Assembly (NCBI GenBank): GCA_002692205.1
Contig: NZJM01000076.1
Location: 1 to 33,965, forward strand
From: Legionellales bacterium
GTDB lineage: Bacteria; Pseudomonadota; Gammaproteobacteria; Eutrophobiales; Eutrophobiaceae
Direction: 5' to 3'
Length of the DNA: 33,965 nt
Made by a program: the position numbers and the translations under genes
Notes under the pieces: model-generated
Told to the model about the DNA's origin: nothing
Database searches by the model: none
Seen by the model: the letters and a program-made list of their open reading frames with translations, nothing else
Shown: positions 3,167 through 17,573 of the stretch, one piece after another
Position numbering within the stretch: the stretch's first letter is position 1
How the letters are laid out: the number at the start of each line of letters is the position of its first letter

Positions 3167-4525
3167 TCAGCTTGTTATTATGTTTGTTAAGTTTGTGTAA
3201 TCCTCGTCCACACGGCTTTCCGTTTCTCTTAGCTCTTTTATTTTTCTGTGGGCGTGTATAACTGTTGTATGGTCTCTTCCCCCAAAAGCGTCCCCTATCT
3301 CAGGAAGACTGTGGGTTGTTAGGTCTTTCGTGATGGACATAGCTATTTGCCGGGGCCTAGTTATCGACCTATTTCTCCTTTTTGACAGCAGATCGGCAAC
3401 CCTTATTTTATAGTACTCCGCCGTTGTTTTTTGTATGTTTTCTATAGTTACTTGTTTATCTTGAATTTTTAATAAATCACGAAGTGCATTTTTTGTAAAT
3501 TCAAGATTTATTGGTTGTTTTGTAAGGTTTGCATTAGCAATTACACGATTCAATGCACCTTCAAGCTCGCGAACATTCGAACGAAAACGCTCGGCTATAA
3601 AAAAAGAAACGTCATCCGGAAGCTCAACAGATGTTTTTAAAGCTTTTTTCCGGACAATTGCCACCCGGGTTTCGAGCTCAGGCGGCTCAATGGCAACAGT
3701 TAATCCCCAGCCAAAGCGCGACTTTAATCGCTCTTCTAGCCCACTAACTTCTTTTGGGTAACGATCGCAGGTCAAAACTATTTGGTGTTGACCCTCTAAA
3801 AGCGCATTGAAAGTATGAAAAAACTCCTCTTGAGAGCGTTCTTTTTTTGCAAAAAATTGAATATCATCAATAAGAAGGGTGTTTAATGAGCGATAATAGC
3901 GCTTAAACTCATTGATTTTATTGTGTTGCAACGCACTGACCATGTCTGCCACAAACCTTTCAGAGTGAAGGTATGCTATTTTTGCAGAAGGGTCGCTTTC
4001 TAAAATCTGCCACCCTATTGCATGCATCAAATGCGTCTTACCGAGACCAACACCCCCGTAAATAAACAAAGGGTTGTATGCGCCACCAGGGTTTGTGGAA
4101 ACCTGAACCGAAGCCGCCCTTGCGAGCTGATTCGAGTTGCCTTCAACAAAAGCATCAAAATTAAATGCCCGATTCAAGCTGTTTGGGGTGCCCCCGACGG
4201 GCTTTTTCACGGCAGGCTTTTCGCCAGACCCAACCAATCGTTTTGGTTGCGAGCTTTGTTCTTCTTCAGATCTTGCTTGCCGGGTTCCTACGCCCAGTTG
4301 CACCAAAACTTTTTCTTGGTTGGGGCGGGTGTTTGAGAGAAGTTCTTCGATTCTTGATAGATAGCGCTCATTTATCCAGTCTTGCACAAAGCGGTTTGGC
4401 GCAAGCAGTTCTACGCTGCCGTTTTTTTCAATTGCGTGTAAAGGGCGAATCCAGGTATCGAACTGCTGGCTTGAGAGCTCAACCTCAAGTTGTTCCAAAC
4501 AGTGTTTCCATGGAGTTGTTTCCAC
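3167..4525 (-). CDS. dnaA: Chromosomal replication initiator DnaA
   Basis: DnaA is the AAA+ protein that binds DnaA boxes and opens the origin. Domain I starts [17 protein letters not shown], then comes a short variable domain II at about 80-115. The ATPase domain follows with Walker [10 protein letters not shown] at about 157-165 and Walker [10 protein letters not shown]. The C-terminal helix-turn-helix has the signature [16 protein letters not shown] place the start at GTG 4525 rather than the TTG one codon upstream (4528): the GAGGG at 4532-4536 lies six bases from GTG but only three from TTG, and a start here puts the domain I tryptophan at position 6 as in E. coli DnaA, which also uses GTG. 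Length is then 452 residues. A DnaA box in its promoter suggests autoregulation. Confidence 0.97.
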
Positions 4526-4585
4526 CAAATGCCCTCGTTGAAAAAAAATACAAAGAAGAGTGGATTTTATACCCGATGAAAATAG

Positions 4586-4594
4586 TTATCCACA
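4586..4594 (+). promoter_or_regulatory. DnaA box (TTATCCACA)
   Basis: The nonamer TTATCCACA matches the high-affinity DnaA-binding consensus exactly. It lies about 60 bases upstream of the dnaA start and overlaps the likely -35 element of the dnaA promoter, the arrangement expected for autorepression of dnaA and possibly for origin function. Confidence 0.75.
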
Positions 4595-4628
4595 ACTACA
4601 AAACATTTTCATAAAATCAGGATATGAA

Positions 4629-4658
4629 TTGACATGATCGACAAGGCAACAGTAACAT
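4629..4658 (+). promoter_or_regulatory. Probable rpmH-rnpA-yidD-yidC promoter
   Basis: A perfect -35 hexamer TTGACA (4629-4634) is followed after 18 bases by TAACAT (4653-4658), four of six matches to the -10 consensus. The predicted transcript would start near 4665, about 37 bases before rpmH, with an AAGG ribosome-binding site at 4689-4692. Confidence 0.5.
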
Positions 4659-4701
4659 ATGCGACCTTTTTAATCTAAATGGTGTCATAAGGTATTTGAG
4701 C

Positions 4702-4836
4702 ATGAAACAAACTTACCAACCAAGCAAACTTAAGCGCAAAAGAAACCACGGTTTTCGTGCAAGAATGCAAACACGTTCCGGAAGACAAATTATAAAAGCA
4801 AGACGAAAAAAAGGAAGGAAACGACTTTCAGCCTGA
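4702..4836 (+). CDS. rpmH: 50S ribosomal protein L34
   Basis: This 44-residue basic protein of the large ribosomal subunit reads [18 protein letters not shown] at its N-terminus, with the conserved RMQTRSGR segment and a C-terminal KGRKRLSA. Length is at the family norm (44-46). AAGG lies nine bases before the ATG. It opens the plus-strand run rpmH-rnpA-yidD-yidC, the most conserved gene order next to dnaA in bacteria. Identity is certain. Confidence 0.98.
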
Positions 4837-4850
4837 ACAACAAAACTCAA

Positions 4851-5204
4851 ATGGTTGCCCCATGTTTAACAGGACGGTTTCGTTTTTATAATAGGCTGCA
4901 AAGCCAAGAGGATTTTGCAGCAGTTTTTGCGTGTAACAACCGATCAAGCGACGAATTGTTTTTATTTTTGTCAAAAAAAAATGGCACAGACATAGCGCGC
5001 CTCGGTCTTGCAATATCTAAAAAATATATAAAAAAATCTGTCGACAGGAACCGTATTAAACGAATTGTAAGGGAGAGTTTTCGTTTGCAAAAAAAGAACT
5101 TAAAAGGAATTGATGTTGTTGTGTTGTTAAAAAAGGAAATTAATAAAAGACGCATTAAAGAAATAAAAATACTCGATACGCACTGGGAAAAAACAACAAA
5201 GTGA
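4851..5204 (+). CDS. rnpA: Ribonuclease P protein component
   Basis: RnpA is the basic protein subunit that helps the RNase P RNA cut 5' leaders from tRNA precursors. The 117 residues show the family hallmarks: an N-terminal NRLQSQEDFAAVF, a central ARLGLAISKKYIKKSVDRNR, and the RNRIKRIVRESFR helix that contacts RNA. It starts 14 bases after rpmH and its stop TGA overlaps the GTG start of yidD (GTGA), which indicates translational coupling. Confidence 0.96.
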   Translation: MVAPCLTGRFRFYNRLQSQEDFAAVFACNNRSSDELFLFLSKKNGTDIARLGLAISKKYIKKSVDRNRIKRIVRESFRLQKKNLKGIDVVVLLKKEINKRRIKEIKILDTHWEKTTK

Positions 5205-5434
5205 AAACAATAATAATAAAGCTGGTTATTTTTTATCAGCGATTTGTTAGTCCTTTCTTCCGTCCGTGTTGCAGGTTTTATCCAACATGTTCCGAGTACA
5301 CGAGAGAGGCTTTGGCAAAACACGGAATTTACAAAGCTCTTTTTTTATCGCTCAAAAGGTTTATAAGATGTAATCCTTTTTTTAAGGGCGGAGTCGACCT
5401 TGTTCCCTCACAAAATAAAAAAAGGAGCGCCTAA
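5201..5434 (+). CDS. yidD: Membrane protein insertion efficiency factor YidD
   Basis: YidD is a small membrane-associated protein that assists YidC/Sec insertion of inner-membrane proteins. The 77 residues contain the family signature: an amphipathic N-terminus (LVIFYQRFVSPFF), the cysteine-containing CRFYPTCSEYTREAL, and the RCNPFFKGGVDLVP motif. The start codon is GTG at 5201 inside the end of rnpA. The stop TAA shares its last A with the yidC ATG, so rnpA, yidD and yidC are translationally chained. Confidence 0.95.
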   Translation: MKTIIIKLVIFYQRFVSPFFRPCCRFYPTCSEYTREALAKHGIYKALFLSLKRFIRCNPFFKGGVDLVPSQNKKRSA

Positions 5435-7077
5435 TGGAGACGCCTCGTTTTTTACTATTAATTTCACTGGGCTTGGTGTTGACCATGATTTATACCACGT
5501 GGATAAATGATTATGGACAAAGCAAGCCAAACTTAGAGTCTACAGGGGCAGCTACTTCTCCACTCGAACAAGACGTGCTTCCCTCTGATGTTCCATCGCT
5601 AAGCATCGACAAGAGTTTGTCGCCAAGTCCAGCGAACAAAGAGCACGACAAAAAAGGGAAAACAATAAATGTAACAACCGATGTGCTCGACATTAAAATT
5701 GATACAGCGGGGGGAAGTATTGTACGTGCAGCATTAAAAGACTATCCGGTTTCGAAAAAAGATCCTGCACGAAAAATAACGCTTTTATATAAAAAAGACA
5801 CAAACTATTTTTATGTATTACAAGGGGGCGTTTTATCAAGGGGAGACGGAGTAAATCCTGATACAGCTTTTAATGCCGAGAATATTAGCTATTCAATTGG
5901 CAATGACGATAGTGTATCTGTCCCGCTATATTTTGATTCCGAGAGCGGCGTCAGGATCATCAAAACCATTACTTTTTATCGAGGTAAATATGTTGCTGAC
6001 ATAGATTATGAAATAAGCAACCAATCTCAAGGTGATTGGACAGGCAGAGCCTACGCAGAAATAAATCGAACGAAACAAAAAGAACAAGAATCAAGATTTA
6101 TATACACATACACAGGCGCAGTTATTTCAACACCGAAAAATCGCTATGAAAAAATTAGCTTCGATGATATTGATGACGAAGACGAAGAGGCTTCGGCAAC
6201 TAATGGCTGGGTGGCAATGCTACAGCACCATTTTTTAACCGCCTTAATTCCCAGCGACAAAGATGAGATGTATACCTACTACACACGCAAAGGAAACACT
6301 AGAAATTATATTGTAGGCGCAGGGCTCCCCACACAAAATATAGCCCCTGGCAAAACATCAACATTTTCTCACAAAGTATATTTCGGGCCAAAGACTCAAA
6401 AAGAAATAGAAAAGATAGCCGAAGGCTTAAGCTTAACGGTCGATTATGGAATTTTTTGGTTTTTAGCAAAACCACTTTACTGGTTGTTGGATTATATAAA
6501 TATGTTTACTAAGAACTGGGGATGGTCAATAGTTTTGGTGACAGTTTTTTTAAAACTACTTTTCTTTAAGTTATCAGCAGCAGGTTATCGATCTATGGCA
6601 AACATGAGAAGAGTGCAGCCTAGACTTGTCGCTATCAAAGAGCGTTATAAAGATGATCGAACGCAACTAAACAAAGCTATGATGGATATATATAAGAAAG
6701 AAAAAATAAACCCTCTGGGAGGTTGTTTCCCGATTCTTGTGCAAATACCAGTTTTTATTTCTTTGTATTGGGTTCTTTTGGAAAGCGTCGAGCTTAGACA
6801 GGCTGAGTTTATTTTTTGGATACAAGATTTATCTATAGCCGATCCATTTTTTGTGTTGCCTCTATTGATGGGCATATCAATGTATTTACAGCAAAAGCTA
6901 AATCCTGCGCCAATGGACCCGATACAGGCAAAAGTGATGGCGATATTACCAGTTGTATTTACAGTATTTTTCGCGTTTTTCCCTGCAGGCTTGGTATTGT
7001 ACTGGGTTGCCAACAACATTCTTTCAATAGCACAACAGTGGGTGATAACACGTAACATAGAGAAAAGTAATTCTTAA
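5434..7077 (+). CDS. yidC: Membrane protein insertase YidC
   Basis: YidC inserts and folds inner-membrane proteins, alone or with SecYEG. The 547 residues match proteobacterial YidC (E. coli 548). A hydrophobic N-terminal anchor at about 6-25 is followed by a low-complexity linker, the large periplasmic domain (about 70-345) and a C-terminal group of membrane segments starting near residue 350. The conserved core includes NWGWSIVLVTV, an arginine in the first core helix region (AAGYRSMANMRRVQPR), and the cytoplasmic hairpin ending in KEKINPLGGCFPILVQIPVF. The start is fixed by the one-base overlap with yidD. An acidic stretch (DDIDDEDEEAS) lies in the periplasmic domain near residue 250. Confidence 0.97.
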   Translation: METPRFLLLISLGLVLTMIYTTWINDYGQSKPNLESTGAATSPLEQDVLPSDVPSLSIDKSLSPSPANKEHDKKGKTINVTTDVLDIKIDTAGGSIVRAALKDYPVSKKDPARKITLLYKKDTNYFYVLQGGVLSRGDGVNPDTAFNAENISYSIGNDDSVSVPLYFDSESGVRIIKTITFYRGKYVADIDYEISNQSQGDWTGRAYAEINRTKQKEQESRFIYTYTGAVISTPKNRYEKISFDDIDDEDEEASATNGWVAMLQHHFLTALIPSDKDEMYTYYTRKGNTRNYIVGAGLPTQNIAPGKTSTFSHKVYFGPKTQKEIEKIAEGLSLTVDYGIFWFLAKPLYWLLDYINMFTKNWGWSIVLVTVFLKLLFFKLSAAGYRSMANMRRVQPRLVAIKERYKDDRTQLNKAMMDIYKKEKINPLGGCFPILVQIPVFISLYWVLLESVELRQAEFIFWIQDLSIADPFFVLPLLMGISMYLQQKLNPAPMDPIQAKVMAILPVVFTVFFAFFPAGLVLYWVANNILSIAQQWVITRNIEKSNS

Positions 7078-7107
7078 ATATAAAACAACTTGCTTCAGTA
7101 GTTTGGA

Positions 7108-8448
7108 ATGTTAGAACACAAAGACACAATAGCAGCAATTTCAACGCCGCCTGGCAGAGCAGGGATTGGAGTAATTCGCGTCTCAGGAAAGAATAGCAGC
7201 AAGATTTACCATGCACTTACGAGCTACAAACCAAAGCACAAACAAGCTCAATACGTTTCTTTTGTCTCATCCACAAACGAAATTATTGATGAAGGGGTTT
7301 CGCTATACTTTAAAGGCCCTTCATCATATACCGGCGAAGATGTAGCCGAGTGTTATGTTCATGGTAACCGGCTCATATTAGACATGCTGCTCGAGGAAAT
7401 TGTTACTCTTGGTGCAAGACTCGCTTTACCGGGAGAATTTACACAGAGAGCTTTTTTAAATGGAAAAATTGATTTAATTCAGGCTGAAGCAGTTGCAGAT
7501 TTAATCGATAGCAACTCAAAAAAAGCAGCAAGGAGCGCTCTTCAATCTGTTCAGGGCGTTTTTTCAGAAAAGATAAAAATTATAAAAACAAAAATAGTCG
7601 AGACGAGGGCGTTAATCGAAGCCTCACTGGATTTTCCTGAAGAAGAAGATGTCATAATAGATTTTGCGCCCGCAATAGAAAATTTAAAATGGTGCACAAA
7701 AGCAATACATGAGTTATTGGCAAAAACTAAAACGGGCAGAATGTTGGACCATGCCCCCATAATAGTAATTGTCGGCAGACCAAATGCAGGAAAGTCTACA
7801 CTTATTAACTCTCTTTCAGGCGCTGACCCAGCAATCGTGTCCGAAGCTCCGGGTACAACACGCGACTTAATAAGAGAGCCAATTCTATTGCGTGAGCAGC
7901 CAACGGTTTTTATAGATACCGCGGGAATACAAAATACGAACGATCCCATAGAAAAAGAGGGTATAGAAAGAACATATAAAGCTATTGCGATTGCAGATCT
8001 TGTCCTATGTTTAATCGATGGCAGTTTTAATAAAAAAGAAACCATTGAGTCAGAAATAAAAAAATATATATCGGACGATGTTGAGTGTATTTTTGTAGCT
8101 AGTAAGATTGATTTGCACCGAGAAAATAATAATGTTTTACCAACGTTTATAGAAATTTCAGCTAAAACCGGCCAAGGGATTGAAAAGCTGATTAATAAGA
8201 TATGTTTAACGCTTGATTTGACGGCAGAGGAGGACATAATCTTTGCAAGAAAGCGCCATATTAATGCGCTTAGTAATGTTGATAGCTACATTAAAGAAGC
8301 ATTATCGAGTATAGAAAGAAAACAGGGCATGGAGATTGTTGTAGAGTTTTTAAGACAAAGCTCGTCCGAGTTTGACGAGATTATTGGGAAGACAACAGCA
8401 GATGATGTTCTAGATAGCATATTTTCAAGCTTTTGTATTGGTAAGTAA
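7108..8448 (+). CDS. mnmE: tRNA modification GTPase MnmE
   Basis: MnmE works with MnmG to add the carboxymethylaminomethyl group at uridine 34 of certain tRNAs. The 446-residue protein has the folate-binding N-terminal domain (DTIAAISTPPGRAGIGVIR), a helical domain, an inserted G domain with G1 GRPNAGKS at 223-230, the PGTTRD switch I (G2), a DTAG G3, an atypical SKID in the G4 position, and the C-terminal CIGK cysteine motif. It lies 30 bases after yidC with only a weak GGA as ribosome-binding site; the frame and the conserved N-terminus support this ATG. Its usual partner mnmG is not in the window. Confidence 0.96.
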   Translation: MLEHKDTIAAISTPPGRAGIGVIRVSGKNSSKIYHALTSYKPKHKQAQYVSFVSSTNEIIDEGVSLYFKGPSSYTGEDVAECYVHGNRLILDMLLEEIVTLGARLALPGEFTQRAFLNGKIDLIQAEAVADLIDSNSKKAARSALQSVQGVFSEKIKIIKTKIVETRALIEASLDFPEEEDVIIDFAPAIENLKWCTKAIHELLAKTKTGRMLDHAPIIVIVGRPNAGKSTLINSLSGADPAIVSEAPGTTRDLIREPILLREQPTVFIDTAGIQNTNDPIEKEGIERTYKAIAIADLVLCLIDGSFNKKETIESEIKKYISDDVECIFVASKIDLHRENNNVLPTFIEISAKTGQGIEKLINKICLTLDLTAEEDIIFARKRHINALSNVDSYIKEALSSIERKQGMEIVVEFLRQSSSEFDEIIGKTTADDVLDSIFSSFCIGK

Positions 8449-8480
8449 TTTAAAAAACTTTGAGTTAAAGGAAGTTATAA

Positions 8481-9416
8481 ATGAACGAAGTATTAAGAGT
8501 TTTAGAAAAGATCCTTAAAAAGTCCGGGTATACTATAAAAAAACACCCAAAATATAATTTATTGCCCTTAAAAAACTTTCAAAACGATCCTTTTCTTAAA
8601 ACCACCTACGATGCTTTTGATAACAAAGATAAGCTTGTGCTAGCTGATGATGTTTCCAAACTAAATGTTTGTTTAAGAACTTGTGTCAGTAAAAAAAGAG
8701 CTGGGGAAAGTTATAGCAAGCTGACAGGAGTTGCTTTGGACCAGCATCTGTTTAAGTGTATACAATCTTTAGTTGTCTCAATAAATGAAGCAGTCGAGCA
8801 TAACAAAAAAATCAAGCTAACTGTTTTTGATGATCGTTCTGATAAAGCTGCATTAGAAAACATAAATAATATATTAGGCAAAGCGAAGTGTGGTTATGAA
8901 GTAATAAAAACCAAAAATGCAGGTCAGGGTGGTTCGCTTTACGAGCACTTTAGTTTTTCTCGGGATAAAAACAGCTTATTTTATTTTTGCGAGGACGATT
9001 ATTTGCATACGCCAAGCGCAATAAATGAAATGATAAGTTTTTATAGAGATATATACGAAGAAGCATCTACACATTTATTAATTCATCCACAGGAACACGA
9101 GCTTATCTATTCACAAATTAATTATCCATCCTATATTCTAGAGGGACAAAATAGAAGATGGCGAACAATAAGTCACTCTACACACACATTCTTTACTCAC
9201 TCATCAATTGTAGACAAATACTGGAGATATTTTGATAATACAAAGTATGTCGGAAACAAAGAAAAACGTCATTTAGGATCTGAAAAGAGAACAACCGATA
9301 AGCTTTTTAACCATATCCCCGGTTTCTCGCCAATACCACCAGTTGCCGTTCATCTCCAGTCTAAAGAGAGTCTGCCACCATTTTTTGATTGGAAAAAAGT
9401 GTGGGACAGTTTTTAA
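8481..9416 (+). CDS. Putative GT2-like glycosyltransferase, unassigned family
   Basis: I do not recognise this 311-residue protein as a named family. It carries a pattern resembling the GT-A fold of family 2 glycosyltransferases: a beta strand ending in TVFDDRSD (about 114-121), then KNAGQGGSLYEHF (about 145-157), then an acidic CEDDYLHTPSAI (170-181) where a metal-binding DxD motif would sit. There is no signal peptide or membrane segment, so it should act in the cytoplasm. A strong AAAGGAAG ribosome-binding site precedes the ATG. It follows mnmE by 32 bases and converges on the glycan gene cluster with a 17-base gap, which supports a role in surface-glycan assembly. Donor and acceptor are unknown. 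Confidence 0.6.
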   Translation: MNEVLRVLEKILKKSGYTIKKHPKYNLLPLKNFQNDPFLKTTYDAFDNKDKLVLADDVSKLNVCLRTCVSKKRAGESYSKLTGVALDQHLFKCIQSLVVSINEAVEHNKKIKLTVFDDRSDKAALENINNILGKAKCGYEVIKTKNAGQGGSLYEHFSFSRDKNSLFYFCEDDYLHTPSAINEMISFYRDIYEEASTHLLIHPQEHELIYSQINYPSYILEGQNRRWRTISHSTHTFFTHSSIVDKYWRYFDNTKYVGNKEKRHLGSEKRTTDKLFNHIPGFSPIPPVAVHLQSKESLPPFFDWKKVWDSF

Positions 9417-9433
9417 AATATCCAAAATAAGAC

Positions 9434-10477
9434 TCATTTTATTGTGTTGTAAACATTATCTGGAGTTATGTTTGCGATATTAATATTGTTTTCAATCACA
9501 ATAGCCCCCTTCCTATTTGGGTACCATTTGGGAGAGAGCTCTCTAGTTGAAAAAAGTCCTATTACATTAGTTCCCGCTGCATCGCAGAGGTGCATAGCCC
9601 CGGTGTCATTGCTTATCGCCATTTGTGAACGTTTAAAAACAAAAAACAATTCTGAAATTGATAATTTATTACAAAGATTATGACTATTTTTTGTTCGAGA
9701 ATTTATATGCTCAGCTTCTTTCACCTCCAATGGGCCGCCTACTATTATAATTTCATAGTCATTTCCAATTAAATTAGCTAGTTTTATCCAGCTATCTAAC
9801 GGCCATTTTTTTGTTTTTAGCTTTCCGCCAATTATAAATACCATTATATTTCTTTTTAACAGTTCAACTATGCCTCTATCCGTAGGCTCTTTTTCTTTTA
9901 TTGGGTAAGCCACATCCCCAATTATTCGTTCATGTTTTAAATTGTTAAGTAATCGCATAGTTTCTGTAGGAATTTGCAAATATTTTTTTTGTGTTTCAAT
10001 GAAAGATTTTATCCTTCCGCTATCCCAACCAAATCCTGATTTGATCTTAAGAAAAAAACGAACAAAAAACATATTTCTAATTGATTTATATAAACCCAGG
10101 TTTTGGGGTAGCTGAATAAAAAGGTCGTATCTGTTTTCTTTGAGTTCATCGAGAGTCTCTTTCCTATTTTTTTTACCTCTTACTAAAATATTGTCGATTA
10201 AGCCATCTTTAAGCCCTAAGTCAGAAAACGTTACTCCACTATCAGAAAAGGTTATCAAATCTATTTTTGCTGATGGAAAGTTTTGCCGAATTATAGATAG
10301 GGATGGTAGCGCTACAACAGAATCACCAAAAGCACCATCACGATTTATTAAAATTTTTGAAAAGGATTTATAGTCTTCCTCTTTAAAGATTATATACCTA
10401 AATATCTTTATAAATAATAAGCGAAATAATATAATTGTTTTTACGTAAAATAATTTTATTTTTTCTAAATTAGTCAT
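9434..10477 (-). CDS. Glycosyltransferase family 9 (heptosyltransferase-like)
   Basis: GT9 enzymes transfer heptose from ADP-heptose to the LPS inner core. The 347-residue protein has a hydrophobic, basic N-terminus (about 1-35) that could associate with the membrane, followed by the first Rossmann domain (INRDGAFGDSVVALPSL). The C-terminal half has the donor-site pattern SNDTGAMHLCDAAGTNVIG and then LFSTRELSPKWYPN. Its ATG overlaps the stop of the upstream GT9 gene (ATGA). It is the last gene of the minus-strand cluster and converges on the plus-strand glycosyltransferase. WaaF/WaaC/WaaQ cannot be distinguished from sequence alone. Confidence 0.85.
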   Translation of the reverse strand: MTNLEKIKLFYVKTIILFRLLFIKIFRYIIFKEEDYKSFSKILINRDGAFGDSVVALPSLSIIRQNFPSAKIDLITFSDSGVTFSDLGLKDGLIDNILVRGKKNRKETLDELKENRYDLFIQLPQNLGLYKSIRNMFFVRFFLKIKSGFGWDSGRIKSFIETQKKYLQIPTETMRLLNNLKHERIIGDVAYPIKEKEPTDRGIVELLKRNIMVFIIGGKLKTKKWPLDSWIKLANLIGNDYEIIIVGGPLEVKEAEHINSRTKNSHNLCNKLSISELFFVFKRSQMAISNDTGAMHLCDAAGTNVIGLFSTRELSPKWYPNRKGAIVIENNINIANITPDNVYNTIK

Positions 10478-11433
10478 ATTAGATTTTGTTTTTTTATTTT
10501 GCTAATAACGTCATCTACAGAAACTGCAGATATATCTTTTGGTTTAAATCCCGCGTCATTTTTTGGAATTACATTATTAGGAAAAATAACGTTTTGCATT
10601 TGCCCGAGCGCATGGGTTCTTCTGGGGTATGTTGGCCCAAAAATTCCGAATACCGGTATTTTTGAGCAGGATAAAATATGCATTGGCGCTGAATCATTAG
10701 TTACCGCGAATTTAGATCTTCTGCCTAGCTCTGCGAGACTTAAAATATCAAAATCACAGGTAGCATTAATGCCGGTAGATTTTGTTAAGTGCGCATTTAA
10801 CATAGAATCATCAACTCCTCCCACCCACACAATTTCAAAATAATTTTTAAGAATTAGCGCAAGCTCTTTAAAGAAGGGCCACCTTTTTTGAGTATGTTTA
10901 TTGCTGGATCCAGCATGCATTATTATAAAATTCTTTTGCGTTAAATTTTTTTCTTTTAACCAGCTAGAAATTTTAGTGATAGTATTTGGCGGAGCAGGTA
11001 GCGATGGCTCAGGTAGCGCAGGACTAATGCCCGCTGATACAATAATTTGATTTAGTCGTTCAAATGAATGACATTCTCCTTTATATATATCATCGGGGTG
11101 CGCCTTATAAGGAAACCTTGGGTGATTTCCAGCACAAAAAGAAACTCCCGATAGCGCGCAATATATTGTACTTCTATCATTGGATTGTAAGTCATATATT
11201 TTGTTAAACCTTGCGCTCCTAATCCATAAAATAGTTTTTATTAAATTAAATAAACCATACCTCATACATTTAATGACCTTAAGGTTTCTTATTTCATTGA
11301 ATAAGTTTTCAAATGCAGGAGTTGTTAGGAGATATACATCATCTTTCTTATGATGAACAAGAATCTTATTAATAATGGATGTTGATATAACAACATCACC
11401 CAGCGCGCCTAATTTTATTATTAAAATCTTCAA
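10474..11433 (-). CDS. Glycosyltransferase family 9 (heptosyltransferase-like)
   Basis: This second GT9 member (319 residues) starts MKILIIKLGALGDVVIST, the classic N-terminus of ADP-heptose:LPS heptosyltransferases. It has the C-terminal nucleotide-sugar pattern VTNDSAPMHILSCSKIPVFG followed by IFGPTYPRRTHALG. The start codon is TTG, overlapping the stop of the O-antigen ligase gene (TTGA), and its stop overlaps the next GT9 start (ATGA), so three genes are translationally chained. The first bases of this gene occur a second time 34 bases upstream. It likely adds a core heptose, but the exact acceptor cannot be seen. Confidence 0.87.
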   Translation of the reverse strand: MKILIIKLGALGDVVISTSIINKILVHHKKDDVYLLTTPAFENLFNEIRNLKVIKCMRYGLFNLIKTILWIRSARFNKIYDLQSNDRSTIYCALSGVSFCAGNHPRFPYKAHPDDIYKGECHSFERLNQIIVSAGISPALPEPSLPAPPNTITKISSWLKEKNLTQKNFIIMHAGSSNKHTQKRWPFFKELALILKNYFEIVWVGGVDDSMLNAHLTKSTGINATCDFDILSLAELGRRSKFAVTNDSAPMHILSCSKIPVFGIFGPTYPRRTHALGQMQNVIFPNNVIPKNDAGFKPKDISAVSVDDVISKIKKQNLI

Positions 11434-11469
11434 GCTGTGTTCTTGGTATTATTATTAAAATCTTCAAGC
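11417..11469 (-). repeat. 34-bp partial tandem duplication at ligase/GT9 junction
   Basis: A perfect 19-base direct repeat occurs at 11417-11435 and 11451-11469, offset by 34 bases (minus-strand unit begins GCTTGAAGATTTTAATAAT). The second copy in reading order contains the TTG start of the GT9 gene and the TGA stop of the ligase gene. The first lies in the ligase C-terminal codons (residues LEDFNN). Because 34 is not a multiple of three, the copies are read in different frames. Confidence 0.9.
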
Positions 11470-12710
11470 GATGCTGTTTTTGCATAACAAAGTGATATTA
11501 ATAGCCAAATAACACTTGCCCAAACGGAGCCATAAAACGCCATATGCGCATTTAGCGGGAATACCGCGACCAGAACAGGAATGAAATATGGCATTATATA
11601 TTTTTTTGATTTTTGATTAAGTATAAATACACACATATATATTATAAAGAGCATGTACCCAATAAATCCAACTACACCAGTTTCACATAATATCTCTAGA
11701 CCCAATAAGTGTGGCTGAGTTGGCGGCAGTTTAGTTTTAACAAAAATATCATCGGGCTTTGCATACTGGTCGTAAATATGTCGAAATCCTCTCGGGCCTA
11801 TTCCAATAACACGATTATCTTTAAATATAGAATACGCCGTATCCCAGATTGATAGCCTTAAAGCAGTAGCATCATTGAAAGACTTGTAGTCACCACTAAA
11901 TATACCTTGAGTAACATTCATTCTAGTTTTCAATGGCTGATGTGAATCAAGCATGATACTAAATATTAGACCAAGTAAAACCGTGATAACACAAACACTC
12001 TTTATAAATAATTTTTTTTCTTTAAAATAAATAAATCCATACAGCAAAAAAGATAAAGATGTGAGAGCGAGCATAACCCAAGCTGCACGACGCCCACTTA
12101 TCAAGACAACAAAAAATAATGGCAACACACTTAATAAAAGATATTTTTTATTAATTAGATTATTGTATATGTATAAAAAGAAAAATGGGGATAGAATTGC
12201 ACAAATATGTGCGATGGTGTTTCTGGGGTAGAACATACCCGTGATTTGACCAGATTCCCATGGGAAACCAAAGATATCTTTTTTGAAAAAAAATTGAATA
12301 GCTCCATCAATTGACCAAAACAAAACGATAAAAAAAATAATTTTTATTATGAAATCTATCTTTTCTTTATCTTTTGCTATGAAATTTATAATAAATATTC
12401 CAGCAAACAAAAATCTCAAATATGGTATAACAGTGTGCAAGGAATGATGTATATCAACCGCATTAAATAAAGATAAGACTTGTGGTATCCAAATACACAA
12501 AAAAATTAATGTAAAGTTTTTTATGATGCGATCAAATATTAGTATTTTTGGATTTGTTGCAACTATGTAAATACCAATTAGGGCCATTACTCCAACGGGA
12601 TAGTTATATAATGCTTTACTGATAAATCCGAAAAACGCAAGAATAACAATGAAGCAGGGCCAATAGTCCTTTAAGAAAATTTTTAAATCTTTATTGTCTG
12701 TAAGAATCAT
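11430..12710 (-). CDS. O-antigen ligase family membrane protein (WaaL/Wzy_C type)
   Basis: This 426-residue polytopic membrane protein would join undecaprenyl-linked glycan to lipid A-core, or polymerise it, on the periplasmic side. Many hydrophobic helices are visible before and after a large periplasmic loop. Family marks are the ISGRRAAWVML segment near the middle and, in the loop, RLSIWDTAYSIF, VIGIGPRGFRHIY and PHLLGLEILCETGVVGF, the His-containing motif typical of the Wzy_C domain. It overlaps the downstream GT9 gene by four bases. Its extreme C-terminus has been altered by a 34-bp duplication. WaaL and Wzy cannot be told apart reliably from sequence; neighbouring heptosyltransferases favour WaaL. 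Confidence 0.82.
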   Translation of the reverse strand: MILTDNKDLKIFLKDYWPCFIVILAFFGFISKALYNYPVGVMALIGIYIVATNPKILIFDRIIKNFTLIFLCIWIPQVLSLFNAVDIHHSLHTVIPYLRFLFAGIFIINFIAKDKEKIDFIIKIIFFIVLFWSIDGAIQFFFKKDIFGFPWESGQITGMFYPRNTIAHICAILSPFFFLYIYNNLINKKYLLLSVLPLFFVVLISGRRAAWVMLALTSLSFLLYGFIYFKEKKLFIKSVCVITVLLGLIFSIMLDSHQPLKTRMNVTQGIFSGDYKSFNDATALRLSIWDTAYSIFKDNRVIGIGPRGFRHIYDQYAKPDDIFVKTKLPPTQPHLLGLEILCETGVVGFIGYMLFIIYMCVFILNQKSKKYIMPYFIPVLVAVFPLNAHMAFYGSVWASVIWLLISLCYAKTASLEDFNNNTKNTA

Positions 12711-12736
12711 TGGGTTTTATAAAGATATTTTGAGGG

Positions 12737-13651
12737 CTAGTATTTATATCGCTCAATAATAATATTTGTTAGTCCAAAAAGATAGCCAATCCCATTTGCT
12801 AGTCTAATAAGTCCTTTTTTGGAATTATCTTTATTTAAAAAAATTATTCCCATAATTAAACTAAAAAAGGCACTCAGTAATTTGCCGATTGTTTTTGGAA
12901 TATATCTGAACCAAGCTGCAACTAGAGAATTATTTTTTCTGTATCTCATGATAAGATTTATTCCGCCCGTGAAATGTCGATAAAGAATATATTTGAGTTT
13001 TTCTCTGTCGGGCGTAATAGTCTCGAAAATCACGGCATCGTCTATCCATGCAGATGATCCTCCTAGTTGACTGGCTTTTGAAAAAAAATCAAAATCTTCA
13101 CCACCCATAAAATCGAAATAGCGATCAAATCTAAGCGAATAATTTTTAATTAGCCCAGCCGTAAACATTACATTTCCAGCAGCAATATTTCTTGGAACAG
13201 CACCTCTTTTATTCTTTCTATCTTGTTTGAAATTTTTAGGCGTAGATGTTTTTTTTGTTGGTATAACTGGCCCTGCTCCAATATCAACTTTATATTCATC
13301 AATACCTTTTACCATATTATTTAGCCAGTTTTCATGGGCAAATTCATCGTCATCGATAAACCCTATTAAATCAGCTTTATGAAGGATAGCTTTTTCTAAT
13401 AAATTGTTTCTCGCCGATGAGATTCCACGCTCTGATTCAATATAATAAAAGCAGTTAACAGCAAAATCATTTTTAATATTATCAAAAGCAATTTTACCAG
13501 ATCCCAATTTATCATTATCTACGACTATAATGATTGGCAAATAACTATCAGGAACTTTGATTTTTGTAAGAGAAAATAAGCAATTTTTTAATAACTCCGG
13601 TCTCATATATGTTGCTATACATATAGTAATTATTTTCTTGTGTGTGACCAT
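12737..13651 (-). CDS. Glycosyltransferase family 2
   Basis: This 304-residue inverting GT-A glycosyltransferase probably adds a sugar to an LPS core or O-unit on the cytoplasmic face. The N-terminus holds ITICIATYMRPELLKNCL, then IIVVDNDKLG, ERGISSARNN and the metal-binding DDD in GFIDDDEFAHENW at about 95-108. The GGEDFDFFSKASQLGG segment corresponds to the catalytic ED region. A hydrophobic stretch near 258-275 (LLSAFFSLIMGIIFL) could be a membrane anchor. It lies seven bases after the GT4 gene and 26 bases before the ligase gene. The sugar specificity is not predictable. Confidence 0.85.
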   Translation of the reverse strand: MVTHKKIITICIATYMRPELLKNCLFSLTKIKVPDSYLPIIIVVDNDKLGSGKIAFDNIKNDFAVNCFYYIESERGISSARNNLLEKAILHKADLIGFIDDDEFAHENWLNNMVKGIDEYKVDIGAGPVIPTKKTSTPKNFKQDRKNKRGAVPRNIAAGNVMFTAGLIKNYSLRFDRYFDFMGGEDFDFFSKASQLGGSSAWIDDAVIFETITPDREKLKYILYRHFTGGINLIMRYRKNNSLVAAWFRYIPKTIGKLLSAFFSLIMGIIFLNKDNSKKGLIRLANGIGYLFGLTNIIIERYKY

Positions 13652-13658
13652 AATCTTT

Positions 13659-14774
13659 TTATTCTTTCTTGTCGTATAGCGAGGTATAGGTTTGTAGTGT
13701 TTTTTCTAACATTGAATCAAGTGAAAAACTATTTATATTTTTAACTTTTGGTGTAGATGTATAAAACTTACTAATTAATTCTACAGCAGAATCAATATTG
13801 AGAGGTATCACTTTGCCCTCTGGAAATAGTTCACTTAATACTTCAGATGCTCCTCCATGATCGTATGCAATGACGGGGACACCAATACTCAATGCTTCTA
13901 ATGCAGTTCTTCCGAATGCTTCTGGGATTTTTGCCAAGGACAATACTAAATCAGATTTTGCCATGATCTCTTTTATATCATCCCTATGCCCAAGAAAGGT
14001 AAAATTTTTACTCATTCCAAAGTTTTCGATTATATTTTTTAATTCATTTAAATATCTTTCTTTTTTCTTATCTATGCCTCCTACAAATAAACCATGTGCT
14101 TTTACACCAGATTTATTTAGTTTCGTTATTATTTCAATAAAGTCATTTTGACCTTTCCATCTTGTTATTCGTGCGGGTAGACAAACTAAAAAATTATTAT
14201 CTGGGATATTATTACTTTTTTCCCATTCCTGTAGCCATTGAGATGTAGGTTGAAAACCAAATTGAAAATTATTCTTATCAACACCTCGATGAATAACGTT
14301 AATATTATTTATGTTGGTGTCTGGGTAGTTTTCTATAATATAATTTTTTATATAATTTGAGATAGCGATAACACGATCGCCTTTAGTCATTATTTTACTG
14401 TAATAATTTACAGAGTATGGGCCATGGACTGTTGTTACAAAATAAGGTTTTTCTTCTCCCTTTATTTTGTTTAAGGCAATATATGATAGCCATGCAGGAA
14501 GACGAGATCGTGCATGAACAATATCAATTTTATTTTCCTTAATTATATTTTGGAGTACAGGTAATAGTTTGAGAGAAAATAAAGATTTTTTACCCACTGG
14601 CAATTCAATATGTTTGCTACCGCCTGCCTGTAGTTTCGGGATTAAGCGCCCCGGCCCTGATATAACAATAGAGTTGAAACCTCTTCTAATAAGTTCATTT
14701 GCGACTTCGACAGTTCCCCGTTCAACGCCACCATAATCGAGATTTGGTAATATTTGTAATATAGTTTTTTTCAA
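13659..14774 (-). CDS. Glycosyltransferase family 4
   Basis: This 371-residue retaining GT-B glycosyltransferase shows the N-terminal acceptor-side motif DYGGVERGTVEVANEL, the inter-domain segment RITRWKGQNDFIEII, and the C-terminal donor-site EAFGRTALEALSIGVPVIAY with the E-x7-E pair of GT4 enzymes. No membrane segment is apparent. The start is TTG (14774), giving MKKTILQILPNL, which matches the expected N-terminal strand; the ribosome-binding site is weak. It sits ten bases after the methyltransferase gene within the glycan operon and likely builds LPS core or O-unit sugars. Confidence 0.87.
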   Translation of the reverse strand: MKKTILQILPNLDYGGVERGTVEVANELIRRGFNSIVISGPGRLIPKLQAGGSKHIELPVGKKSLFSLKLLPVLQNIIKENKIDIVHARSRLPAWLSYIALNKIKGEEKPYFVTTVHGPYSVNYYSKIMTKGDRVIAISNYIKNYIIENYPDTNINNINVIHRGVDKNNFQFGFQPTSQWLQEWEKSNNIPDNNFLVCLPARITRWKGQNDFIEIITKLNKSGVKAHGLFVGGIDKKKERYLNELKNIIENFGMSKNFTFLGHRDDIKEIMAKSDLVLSLAKIPEAFGRTALEALSIGVPVIAYDHGGASEVLSELFPEGKVIPLNIDSAVELISKFYTSTPKVKNINSFSLDSMLEKTLQTYTSLYDKKE

Positions 14775-14784
14775 TTTTCTTAAA

Positions 14785-15525
14785 TTAAAATTTCTTTGAT
14801 AAAAAAATTAATCCAGGTTTCTTATTTTTATAAAACTTTACTATTTGAAAACCATATCTGCTAAATAGCATAGAAACTGTTTTTTTTGTAAAGTGTTGAA
14901 CATGTATTGGTGGGCATAGCACGTCCCACTCTTTAATATTATCGGGTACTTTTGGGTGCCCTAAATCAGGTGTTGTTATGTATAGGTAGCCATTTTTTTT
15001 AACCAATTTTTCAAGAACCTTCATATATAAATTTATATCACTTACATGTTCAATCAATTCCGAAGAATGAACAAAATCATATTGATCTTCGGATTTAATA
15101 AGTTCTGTAAAGTCCGCACAAAAATAATTCACGAATCTAAACCTTCTTTTTGCATATGCAACAGCTTTTGCATTTATATCCACGCCATTTGATGATTTGG
15201 CTATAAAGCTTAATGCATATGCAACAAAGCCACCACCGCAACCAAAATCTAAGCATTTTTTGTTAATTGCATACGGGAGAAACCTAGGTAATTTTATAAA
15301 CGCACGCCTTAGTCGCGAACTTGCTTTTTTATAACCATCTTTAGCTTTAGTATCTTCTTCTGTGTATATTTTATTTAATATAGTTTGATTTGGCATCGGA
15401 TTTAAAAATAGAAATTCACAATTTTTGCAACAGTCAAAACTATAGTCATTTTTTTTCAAAAAGTATGAAATCTCAGAGTCATTGCAAGCGGGACATAAGG
15501 CTGTTTTTTGTGTTTGGTGTTTCAT
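14785..15525 (-). CDS. Class I SAM-dependent methyltransferase with N-terminal Zn ribbon
   Basis: This cytoplasmic enzyme has two parts. Four cysteines in CPAC and CCKNC-type motifs within the first 35 residues form a probable zinc ribbon. A Rossmann methyltransferase core follows with CLDFGCGGGFVAYAL (SAM motif I) and SSELIEHVSD (post-motif), typical of the Methyltransf_11/23 families often found in polysaccharide loci. I place the start at ATG 15525 (246 residues, MKHQTQKTALCPAC); a TTG three codons upstream (15534), right after the ELM1 stop, is an alternative. The substrate is unknown, with a sugar or lipid-linked glycan as the likely candidate from context. Confidence 0.8.
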   Translation of the reverse strand: MKHQTQKTALCPACNDSEISYFLKKNDYSFDCCKNCEFLFLNPMPNQTILNKIYTEEDTKAKDGYKKASSRLRRAFIKLPRFLPYAINKKCLDFGCGGGFVAYALSFIAKSSNGVDINAKAVAYAKRRFRFVNYFCADFTELIKSEDQYDFVHSSELIEHVSDINLYMKVLEKLVKKNGYLYITTPDLGHPKVPDNIKEWDVLCPPIHVQHFTKKTVSMLFSRYGFQIVKFYKNKKPGLIFLSKKF

Positions 15526-15535
15526 AAAATTCAAT

Positions 15536-16438
15536 CTAAACCATTTTATTTAATATGATTGAAGCGCAACGTTGTGCTTCAGCTAAGATTAAATTATTAG
15601 CCGTCAATTTATTTCCTTTTTTCCATGACCTGAAAGACATAACGCTTTTTTCAGTTATTAAGCAGTCAATAGAATCATTTATTCTATTTGCGTGTTCTTT
15701 TGATAGATCAAACAGTCCGACTTTTGCCCCAGAAGTAAGTGATTCATATATCATAGAGATACTATCAGGGCTCACCCATATGTTATCTGCTAGAAAAATA
15801 AGGTCCTTTATTTTTTTGCTATTACCTTTTTCAAAATATGATATATCAACATTCTTATGATTCAATTTTGAAATTTTTGAAATAATATTTTTAGGAGTAC
15901 GTGGTGAATTTGAGATTGTCCAGCGGATTTCATTACACACTGTGACAACCATGTTTACTTGTTTGACGATAGAATTGGTATCCCACCTATAGTGTTTAGA
16001 CGGACCACCAATTAAGATTACTCCCAATTTTTTTTGTTTACTCTTATTGAATTTCAACGCATTTAATGCTCCATTTGATGTAATAACATTTTCCTTTTTT
16101 TTGGGAGCATCATGTTTTGGTATTATGCATAAATCAAAACAACTTAACGGTAAGCTCGGCTTCATCAAAACTATTATTTTCCCCTTCCGCGCCTGTTTAG
16201 CTGAGAGCATTGTTAGATGTGTTTTATGCCCTGCGCCAATAATAAGATCTGGGTCTGGTAAGTGTTCCCCATATGGGAATTTCTTTGAAACATAACTCTT
16301 TATAGACTCGATAAAAGAAACAGCTTCCAAGTCATATTGTTTACATTGCGATAAATTTTTAATTGCTTGACACAATCCAGTGCTCTGAGAATCATGACCA
16401 GACTTCCCATCTGTAATACGCCAAATATTTAATGTCAT
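15536..16438 (-). CDS. Mitochondrial fission ELM1 family protein (DUF1022)
   Basis: Bacterial members of this family are GT-B-like proteins of unknown activity, often in LPS or cell-envelope loci; the family name comes from a plant homologue. The 300 residues begin IWRITDGKSGHDSQSTGL, the characteristic N-terminal motif, followed by PDLIIGAGHKTHL, a central VILIGGPSKHYRWD and a C-terminal WVSPDSISMIYESLTSGAKVG that resembles a nucleotide-sugar-binding region. There is no signal peptide. It precedes the methyltransferase directly and lies 20 bases after the small zinc-finger gene. A glycosyltransferase role is inferred from fold resemblance and context only. Confidence 0.85.
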   Translation of the reverse strand: MTLNIWRITDGKSGHDSQSTGLCQAIKNLSQCKQYDLEAVSFIESIKSYVSKKFPYGEHLPDPDLIIGAGHKTHLTMLSAKQARKGKIIVLMKPSLPLSCFDLCIIPKHDAPKKKENVITSNGALNALKFNKSKQKKLGVILIGGPSKHYRWDTNSIVKQVNMVVTVCNEIRWTISNSPRTPKNIISKISKLNHKNVDISYFEKGNSKKIKDLIFLADNIWVSPDSISMIYESLTSGAKVGLFDLSKEHANRINDSIDCLITEKSVMSFRSWKKGNKLTANNLILAEAQRCASIILNKMV

Positions 16439-16458
16439 GTTAATTTATTTAAACATTA

Positions 16459-16641
16459 TTATTTTTCTAAAATATACTCTGTCCCACAGTAGGGGCACTT
16501 TGCTTTGTTTGATGAATTTATTGGTAAATAGATTTTTGGGTGTTGGCTCCAAAGATTTATGTCTGGAAGTGGGCAATGTAGAGGCAGCTGATTCAACTTT
16601 ATATTCACAACCATCTGATTGTCATCGGTTATTTTTTTCAT
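16459..16641 (-). CDS. CHCC zinc-finger domain protein
   Basis: This 60-residue protein has a CHCC ligand set: Cys23 (LPLHCPLPD), His34 (WSQHPKIYLPI), Cys49 and Cys52 (KCPYCGTEY). That pattern, including HPKIYLPI, defines the zf-CHCC domain also seen in the mitochondrial complex I subunit NDUFS6. Its bacterial function is unknown. It starts eight bases after the ilvE stop and so is co-transcribed with ilvE, an association I know from other gammaproteobacteria. Zinc binding is inferred from the residues. Confidence 0.85.
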   Translation of the reverse strand: MKKITDDNQMVVNIKLNQLPLHCPLPDINLWSQHPKIYLPINSSNKAKCPYCGTEYILEK

Positions 16642-16649
16642 TTAATTTT

Positions 16650-17573
16650 TTAAGCAATGTAATTTAGCCAGTTTTTGTAGTCATCAATTTTACCGCTCAC
16701 ACAGTCGAAGTACTGGTTTTGCAATTTTTCAGTAACAGGACCTTTTTTACCACTTCCAATAATACGATTATCAAGTTCACGAATAGGAGTAACTTCGGCC
16801 GCTGTTCCAGTAAAGAAAGCTTCATCCGCTATGTAAATTTCGTCTCGCGTTATTCTTTTTTCTTTGAATGCAATATTATTTTTATCAGCGAATTGTGCGA
16901 TAGTATCTCTTGTTATTCCTTCAAGTGCTGAGGTTAAATCAGGAGTATATAGAGTCCCATCTCGTACTATAAAAATATTTTCACCACTTCCTTCAGCAAC
17001 ATAACCATCAACATCTAATAATAACGCTTCATCATAACCAGCAGACATAGCGTCTTGAAGAGCAAGCATAGAGTTCATGTAATTGCCGTTAGCTTTAGCT
17101 TTGCACATAGTGATGTTTACATGATGACGTGAAAAAGATGACGTTTTGACTCGGATACCTTTTTCTAATCCTTCATTTCCTAAGTAAGATCCCCAAGCCC
17201 AGGCAGCGATCATCACGTGCACCTTAAGATTATCCGCTCTTAAGCCCATCCCTTCAGAGCCATAAAAACACATTGGTCTTATATAGGCGGTTTCAAGATT
17301 ATTCTTTTTTACCGCCTCTAGGCATGCCGTATTTAATGTTTGTTTATCAAAGGGCATTGGCATATTCAGAATATGTGCAGATGAGAATAGTCTATTTATA
17401 TGGTCTTCCAGACGAAAAATACTCGTACCCTTTTTTGCTTTGTATGCTCGAATACCTTCGAACACACCCATTCCATAATGTAGAGTGTGAGTTAAAACAT
17501 GTACTTTAGCGTCTTTCCAAGGAATAAATTTTCCATCCAACCAAATTACGCCATCACCATTATCCATGCCCAT
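16650..17573 (-). CDS. ilvE: Branched-chain amino acid aminotransferase
   Basis: IlvE is a PLP-dependent fold-type IV transaminase that makes leucine, isoleucine and valine from their 2-oxo acids using glutamate. The 307 residues match the family (E. coli 309). Visible motifs are VIWLDGKFIPW, THTLHYGMGVFEGIRAY, the PLP-lysine region KAKANGNYMNSMLA near residue 160, and the phosphate-binding EGSGENIFIV and EGITRD segments. Two in-frame ATGs lie at the start (codons 1 and 3); either could be used, with GGAAA upstream. It heads the minus-strand run that continues into the surface-glycan genes. Confidence 0.95.
   Translation of the reverse strand: MGMDNGDGVIWLDGKFIPWKDAKVHVLTHTLHYGMGVFEGIRAYKAKKGTSIFRLEDHINRLFSSAHILNMPMPFDKQTLNTACLEAVKKNNLETAYIRPMCFYGSEGMGLRADNLKVHVMIAAWAWGSYLGNEGLEKGIRVKTSSFSRHHVNITMCKAKANGNYMNSMLALQDAMSAGYDEALLLDVDGYVAEGSGENIFIVRDGTLYTPDLTSALEGITRDTIAQFADKNNIAFKEKRITRDEIYIADEAFFTGTAAEVTPIRELDNRIIGSGKKGPVTEKLQNQYFDCVSGKIDDYKNWLNYIA

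Follow-up and report, generated by a model that had tools for sequence, protein, structure and literature searches.

A stretch of 33,965 nucleotides from a Legionellales bacterium (contig NZJM01000076.1, hereafter the window) carries an open reading frame resembling a glycosyltransferase between the housekeeping gene mnmE and a cluster of lipopolysaccharide (LPS)-type genes. Which enzyme could this gene encode, and how did it come to lie at such a junction?

GTX lies between mnmE and an LPS-type cluster

The gene, named GTX here, occupies positions 8481..9416 of the + strand and would encode, from an ATG start, a GT-A/GT2-like glycosyltransferase of 311 residues. It contains the three motifs named in a preliminary description of this DNA, FDDRSD (116-121), KNAGQGGS (145-152) and CEDDYLH (170-176), and its core residues are R66, D117-D118, G148-Q149-G150, E171-D172-D173, H176, W227, P286, H291 and W304. 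As that description also stated, it closely follows mnmE (7108..8448, + strand; MnmE_helical 2.4e-45, TrmE_N 8.7e-39), whose stop codon ends at 8448 and leaves 32 bp before GTX. A probable ribosome-binding site, AAAGGAAG (8467..8474, + strand), can be read from the sequence at Shine-Dalgarno distance. Upstream on the same strand are yidC (5434..7077), identified by domain search, and three ORFs that we take, from their translations, to be rpmH (4696-4836), rnpA (4851-5204) and yidD (5201-5434).

The + strand genes from 4696 to 9416 are tightly spaced: two pairs overlap, and the remaining gaps measure 14, 30 and 32 bp. Between mnmE and GTX no terminator-like site was found on the + strand. This spacing and the lack of a terminator make co-transcription of GTX with the rpmH-rnpA-yidD-yidC-mnmE unit plausible. 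The earlier proposal that GTX is fused into this transcription unit thus agrees with the spacing and the missing terminator, but gains nothing from a promoter scan of positions 4500-17000, which gave 47 sites against 53.2 expected. No Rfam family matched between 4500 and 17700.

On its other side, GTX converges on LPS genes, as had been noted: a GT9 (heptosyltransferase-family) gene on the - strand (9434..10477; PF01075, 1.7e-18) leaves 17 bp between its end and that of GTX. This strand then carries a second GT9 gene (10474..11433; PF01075, 1.4e-12), a Wzy_C family membrane protein resembling O-antigen ligases or polymerases (11430..12710; PF04932, 2.8e-20), an ordinary GT2 glycosyltransferase (12737..13651; PF00535, 8e-14), a GT4-type glycosyltransferase (13659..14774; PF00534, 6.9e-27), a class I methyltransferase (14785..15534; PF13489, 5e-24) and an ELM1-like protein (15536..16438; PF06258, 3e-61).

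A scan of genome contigs found full-length GTX homologues with 42-80% identity in 12 contigs, titled uncultured Legionellales, Thiotrichaceae, other proteobacteria, one Thermodesulfobacteriota and Methylocapsa aurea. The dN/dS ratios of GTX against its three nearest relatives (G003, G004 and G001) were 0.093, 0.128 and 0.087, rough values with synonymous change near saturation; under the same saturation, mnmE gave 0.090 against the nearest relative, similar to the 0.093 of GTX. Because it has full-length homologues and a low dN/dS, GTX is, judged from these comparisons, a real ORF rather than a chance one, and it is under purifying selection. Its GC content is 0.341 for 0.353 in the window, so that it bears no foreign base-composition signature.

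GTX is predicted to adopt a GT-A fold

We then considered the sequence family. The Pfam model PF00535 (Glycos_transf_2) matches residues 96-238 of GTX with 24.5 bits, for a cut-off of 23.3, and matches 11 of the 15 aligned homologues, GTX counted, at E <= 1. With 18.9 bits the G143 homologue falls short of this cut-off, and PF00535 finds no match in the G181 homologue; the GT9 model PF01075 does not match GTX at E <= 1. Three other candidates were set aside: the best PHROGs match (0.038) is not credible, the best NCBIfam match, obtained with the GTX sequence only as query, reaches 0.017 and 14.4 bits for a cut-off of 500, and a stretch of a HIT-family hydrolase found by sequence in the PDB (E 0.4) was rejected as chance. 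With the GTX profile, the closest solved structure is TarS (E 0.017). The opinion that GTX matches no family that can be named has thus to be amended, since PF00535 is just passed; it keeps its force for the closest wider family, described below, for which we found no model of its own in Pfam or PHROGs.

A first structure model, built from 13 close sequences, reached a pLDDT of 51.6 and was too weak to be interpreted alone; its Foldseek matches were already mostly GT-A enzymes. A second model, built from 42 sequences of which 29 are from phages, is confident (pLDDT 85.1, pTM 0.87), and became so only after the phage relatives were added. With this model Foldseek returned 147 chains at E <= 0.001, among them SpsA (5.8e-8), TarP (1.8e-6) and GnT-I (9.9e-6). 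VIA-align 2, run on Foldseek's candidates, gave K4 chondroitin polymerase (Z 14.9, rmsd 3.4 over 207 residues), GnT-I (Z 14.3, 2.9 over 189), RmlT (Z 13.6, 3.4 over 193), TarP (Z 13.6, 3.0 over 182), TarS (Z 13.5, 2.8 over 182) and SpsA (Z 13.2, 3.4 over 187). Going by their titles, the structural matches shown are all glycosyltransferases or proteins with a glycosyltransferase domain. The GT-A/GT2-like pattern perceived in the preliminary description is therefore borne out by both the PF00535 score and the confident model, and the comparison of folds that it called for yielded GT-A and not an unrelated architecture. Altogether, GTX is predicted to have a GT-A fold, which by itself does not prove activity.

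In the model, the first core strand (60-67) terminates at R66, the next one (110-117) at D117-D118 and strand 166-171 at the EDD motif (171-173). An arginine, an acidic pair and an EDD motif at strand ends form the layout of a GT-A donor site. GTX contains no membrane-type stretch, its highest 19-residue hydropathy mean being 1.08. Searched against a viral structure library, the model comes closest to a phage protein whose sole annotation is a methyltransferase domain (2.4e-21); an uncharacterised protein of Synechococcus phage S-SRM01 ranks third (4.5e-12).

Profiles relate GTX to an unnamed family common in phage contigs

Searches with the GTX protein gave no match in 50,697 phage records and none in plasmid records, and with the GTX profile 34 stretches of viral contigs fit a pattern, none of which was confirmed. 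Two bacterial proteins, from G690 and G551, share with GTX the EDDYLH motif, WRT and a late histidine. In viral contigs, an alignment of these two rows led to 156 loci that were confirmed, and 80 of them (L090-L169) were retained; the G551 protein matched four phage records, including Synechococcus phage S-SRM01. When the GTX profile was compared by hhalign with a profile of 34 phage proteins, the two matched over 221 columns with a probability of 99.2% and an E-value of 1.2e-19. The phage-only profile, built without any GTX sequence, detects GTX in the window's genome (2.2e-15) and matches four of the 398 phylum genomes in all.

The residues R66, Y168, E171, D173, H176 and W304 are invariant in 42/42 aligned sequences, while D172 and W227 are present in 90% or more of them, and GTX carries the R, YF.EDDYLH, W, DW signature of the phage and bacterial EDDYLH proteins, of which the uncharacterised protein A0A879R2R5 of Synechococcus phage S-SRM01 is an example. 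E205, E207 and E268, considered as possible catalytic bases of an inverting enzyme, are invariant among close GTX homologues and not in the wider family. The phage members used are about 220-280 residues long, are devoid of the N-terminal extension of GTX and mostly have YDH.D.Y where GTX has HPQEHE. PF00535 recognises only 5 of the 34 phage members at E <= 0.1, and a PHROG match at E <= 0.001 was obtained for only one of the 34. On the strength of these profile comparisons, GTX is related to, and longer than, the members of an unnamed GT-A family that is common in phage contigs.

GTX is concentrated in four genera

Sixteen of the 53 genomes of the window's family possess GTX, all of them in four of its 18 genera (in the collection used, family and order searches returned the same 53 genomes). 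These four genera count 21 genomes. The five without GTX (G002, G005, G018, G068 and G071) also have no full mnmE match, which indicates that the region is unassembled and makes them uninformative. Among 369 class genomes there were five matches: the own genome, one family member, G143 (8.6e-121), G181 (6e-37) and a weak partial match in G099 (1.9e-6) that looks like an ordinary GT2 and was set aside. The GTX profile matched three of 398 phylum genomes, the own genome and, weakly, G690 (1.9e-8) and G551 (7.2e-6). In these searches GTX is rare outside the window's family.

Several individual copies deserve mention. A contig labelled Thermodesulfobacteriota, DHS20C13 (L014:1-3310), bears a GTX 60-61% identical, in the gene order of the gammaproteobacterial genomes, and is likely a mis-binned contig or a mislabelled assembly. 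The full-length G143 homologue (L050:8635-9603) stands alone among metabolic genes, presumably, from reading the ORFs, a glutathione-transferase-like gene on one side and acyl-CoA-dehydrogenase-like genes on the other. The Methylocapsa aurea homologue (L021:1-13050; 42% identity) is surrounded by phage-type integrase, MobA/MobL and replication-like HTH genes, which suggests that it sits in a mobile element. Neither of these two loci is LPS-type. In G181, outside the order, the arrangement is GT9 / DUF6165-GTX homologue / GT9 (L051:7060-10477), and DUF6165 seems to be tied to LPS-type loci. Finally, the G073 orthologue is split into two fragments that lie on a single contig at a distance of about 340 kb (L052:9937-10455; L053:8076-8264), with mutator-family transposase genes near each piece (L052:8864-9850; L053:9263-9919), which suggests an insertion-sequence-linked rearrangement or an assembly join. 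This fragmented copy implies that GTX can be lost and is not indispensable.

Loss of neighbours as the probable origin of the junction with mnmE

We compared 16 intact loci, those of the 15 family genomes with an unbroken gene and that of DHS20C13. The check at mnmE in relatives proposed in the preliminary description showed that, as far as the contigs reach, orthologues are at the same locus in all 16. The usual order is mnmE - (DUF6165) - GT9 - GTX, converging on the LPS-type cluster. A GT9 gene is directly upstream of GTX in 11 of these loci, and in all 11 its stop codon and the start of GTX share 4 or 8 nt; DUF6165 precedes the GT9-GTX pair in 8 of the 16. Among the genes searched for, mnmE is the next one upstream, at 10 to 210 bp, in five loci only (window, G001, G066, G070 and G029). 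An FkbM methyltransferase gene follows GTX in four of the 16. In two loci the contig begins before mnmE. The downstream convergent run GT9-GT9-Wzy_C-GT2-GT4-methyltransferase-ELM1-ilvE is largely common to the GTX loci.

Genomes without GTX were also informative. Of 13 such family genomes found to have mnmE, 12 were compared: mnmE is followed in 10 by a match to the GT9 gene that lies upstream of GTX elsewhere, and in 6 by DUF6165, while GT4, ELM1 and ilvE point toward mnmE from the opposite strand in 11, the contig ending in the twelfth. In one of them (G025) the GT9 gene meets the convergent GT9 gene with no ORF of 100 residues between them. Since relatives without GTX mostly keep the arrangement, the LPS-type cluster lies beside mnmE independently of GTX, and the link between mnmE and LPS genes is old. 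A search of titles and the opening parts of abstracts found no description of mnmE/trmE beside LPS or glycosyltransferase genes, and a search by name found no literature on DUF6165.

In the window's own genome, whose assembly is 87% complete so that a copy elsewhere is not fully excluded, no remnant of DUF6165 was found, and the only trace of the GT9 partner was a 24% match (E 3.8e-4) to the convergent GT9 gene. The bare mnmE-GTX junction is explained by the absence of these two genes. A yidC+mnmE tree groups the window with G003 (L010) and G001 (L012), the window and G003 being closest. This group is recovered in the GTX tree, as are the pairs L018/L019 and L013/L015. The GTX tree is poorly supported at its deeper nodes (37-59), some of which differ from the yidC+mnmE tree, for example in where L017 and L018/L019 are placed. 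Because the GT9 gene persists in G003 but is missing from the window and G001, at least two losses of it have probably taken place within the genus, with GTX retained each time.

The preliminary description had seen here a gene inserted under a strong housekeeping promoter. This account is not sustained, as the LPS-type cluster lies by mnmE in nearly all family members examined, with or without GTX, and as direct adjacency to mnmE accompanies the absence of DUF6165 and the GT9 gene. Read from the comparison of gene orders, the arrangement in the window is one of neighbour loss and not of recent insertion.

Proposed role of GTX

We propose, as a likely though not certain reading, that GTX is a soluble, metal-dependent GT-A glycosyltransferase that contributes one sugar to the LPS core or outer core as it is assembled. 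The nucleotide sugar would be bound by R66 and D117/D118, and the metal coordinated by the EDD motif, at D173. The acceptor could be held by the C-terminal part, with its WRT, PIP..H.Q and LPPFFDW motifs. Since GTX has no membrane-type stretch, it would act in the cytoplasm on the lipid-linked core. It may work beside GT9 enzymes, whose frames overlap its own in most relatives; in the window's genome, from which DUF6165 and the partner GT9 gene would have been lost, it is probably read from the mnmE unit. The assignment to the LPS core comes from the link to GT9 genes, including the independent case of G181. The gene context, an LPS-type cluster with GT9 neighbours, likewise favours the surface-glycan role first suggested for this gene. 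Against the proposal as a whole count the lack of a close solved relative (best PDB sequence match at E 0.4, TarS at 0.017 by profile), the marginal PF00535 score, a structure model that gained confidence only with the phage relatives, the G143 and Methylocapsa aurea copies outside glycan loci, and the broken G073 copy.

A comparison with known enzymes is instructive. Like the GT2 enzymes of PF00535 (SpsA, TarP, TarS and K4 chondroitin polymerase), GTX displays a GT-A fold, an acidic pair in the nucleotide-sugar half and an acidic metal motif. Unlike them, it scores only marginally, its motif is EDD followed by YLH, it has an N-terminal extension of about 60 residues, and its C-terminal half, with PQEHE, WRT, PIP..H.Q and LPPFFDW, has no solved relative found by sequence. 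GnT-I (GT13), which also carries an EDD metal motif, is a close structural match, but it is a eukaryotic N-glycan enzyme with 8-10% identity, and its Z lies within about 1 of those of the GT2 enzymes. The GT9 heptosyltransferases share the locus of GTX; they form a different sequence family and have a GT-B fold.

One could also assume that GTX glycosylates another target, such as a capsule or exopolysaccharide precursor, a protein or an O-antigen side branch. We regard this as rather unlikely. The nearest solved folds do act on many acceptors, among them chondroitin, teichoic acid and N-glycans, the Wzy_C protein of the cluster could be a polymerase or a ligase, and homologues occur away from LPS-type loci. 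However, the adjacent cluster has two GT9 genes, which are typical of the LPS core, and an additional GT9 gene overlaps the start of GTX in 11 of the 16 loci.

The relationship with phage proteins leads to a wider hypothesis, which we advance tentatively and hold to be possible at best: GTX and its phage cousins could be a GT-A family in its own right, characterised by an EDDYLH metal motif and a C-terminal WRT / PIP..H / LSP..DW acceptor module and lacking a solved structure; its members would have passed between phages and the surface-glycan loci of bacteria, and would determine the chemistry of LPS receptors. That GTX itself derives from a phage and was retained because it modifies a surface receptor, with a function in superinfection or phage resistance, seems to us improbable. 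The profile homology to a family with 156 loci in viral contigs, the uncharacterised phage proteins among the best viral structural matches and the mobile context of the Methylocapsa homologue could be taken in its favour; yet direct searches of phage records and viral contigs confirmed no GTX, identity to the phage proteins is only 15-24%, so that any transfer would be ancient, and GTX is otherwise inherited with its locus. Lastly, a recent insertion behind mnmE for the benefit of strong expression, as its position directly after mnmE with a good ribosome-binding site could suggest, is very improbable given orthologues at the same locus in all intact loci as far as contigs reach, a base composition that is not foreign, and relatives that still have the intermediate genes DUF6165 and GT9.

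In place of insertion under a housekeeping promoter, the analysis puts a simpler history, that of an old LPS-type locus beside mnmE which is losing genes. It also links an enzyme of a bacterial LPS locus to a phage family labelled 'uncharacterised' in databases, and the phage EDDYLH genes gain by this a predicted fold and an activity that can be tested.
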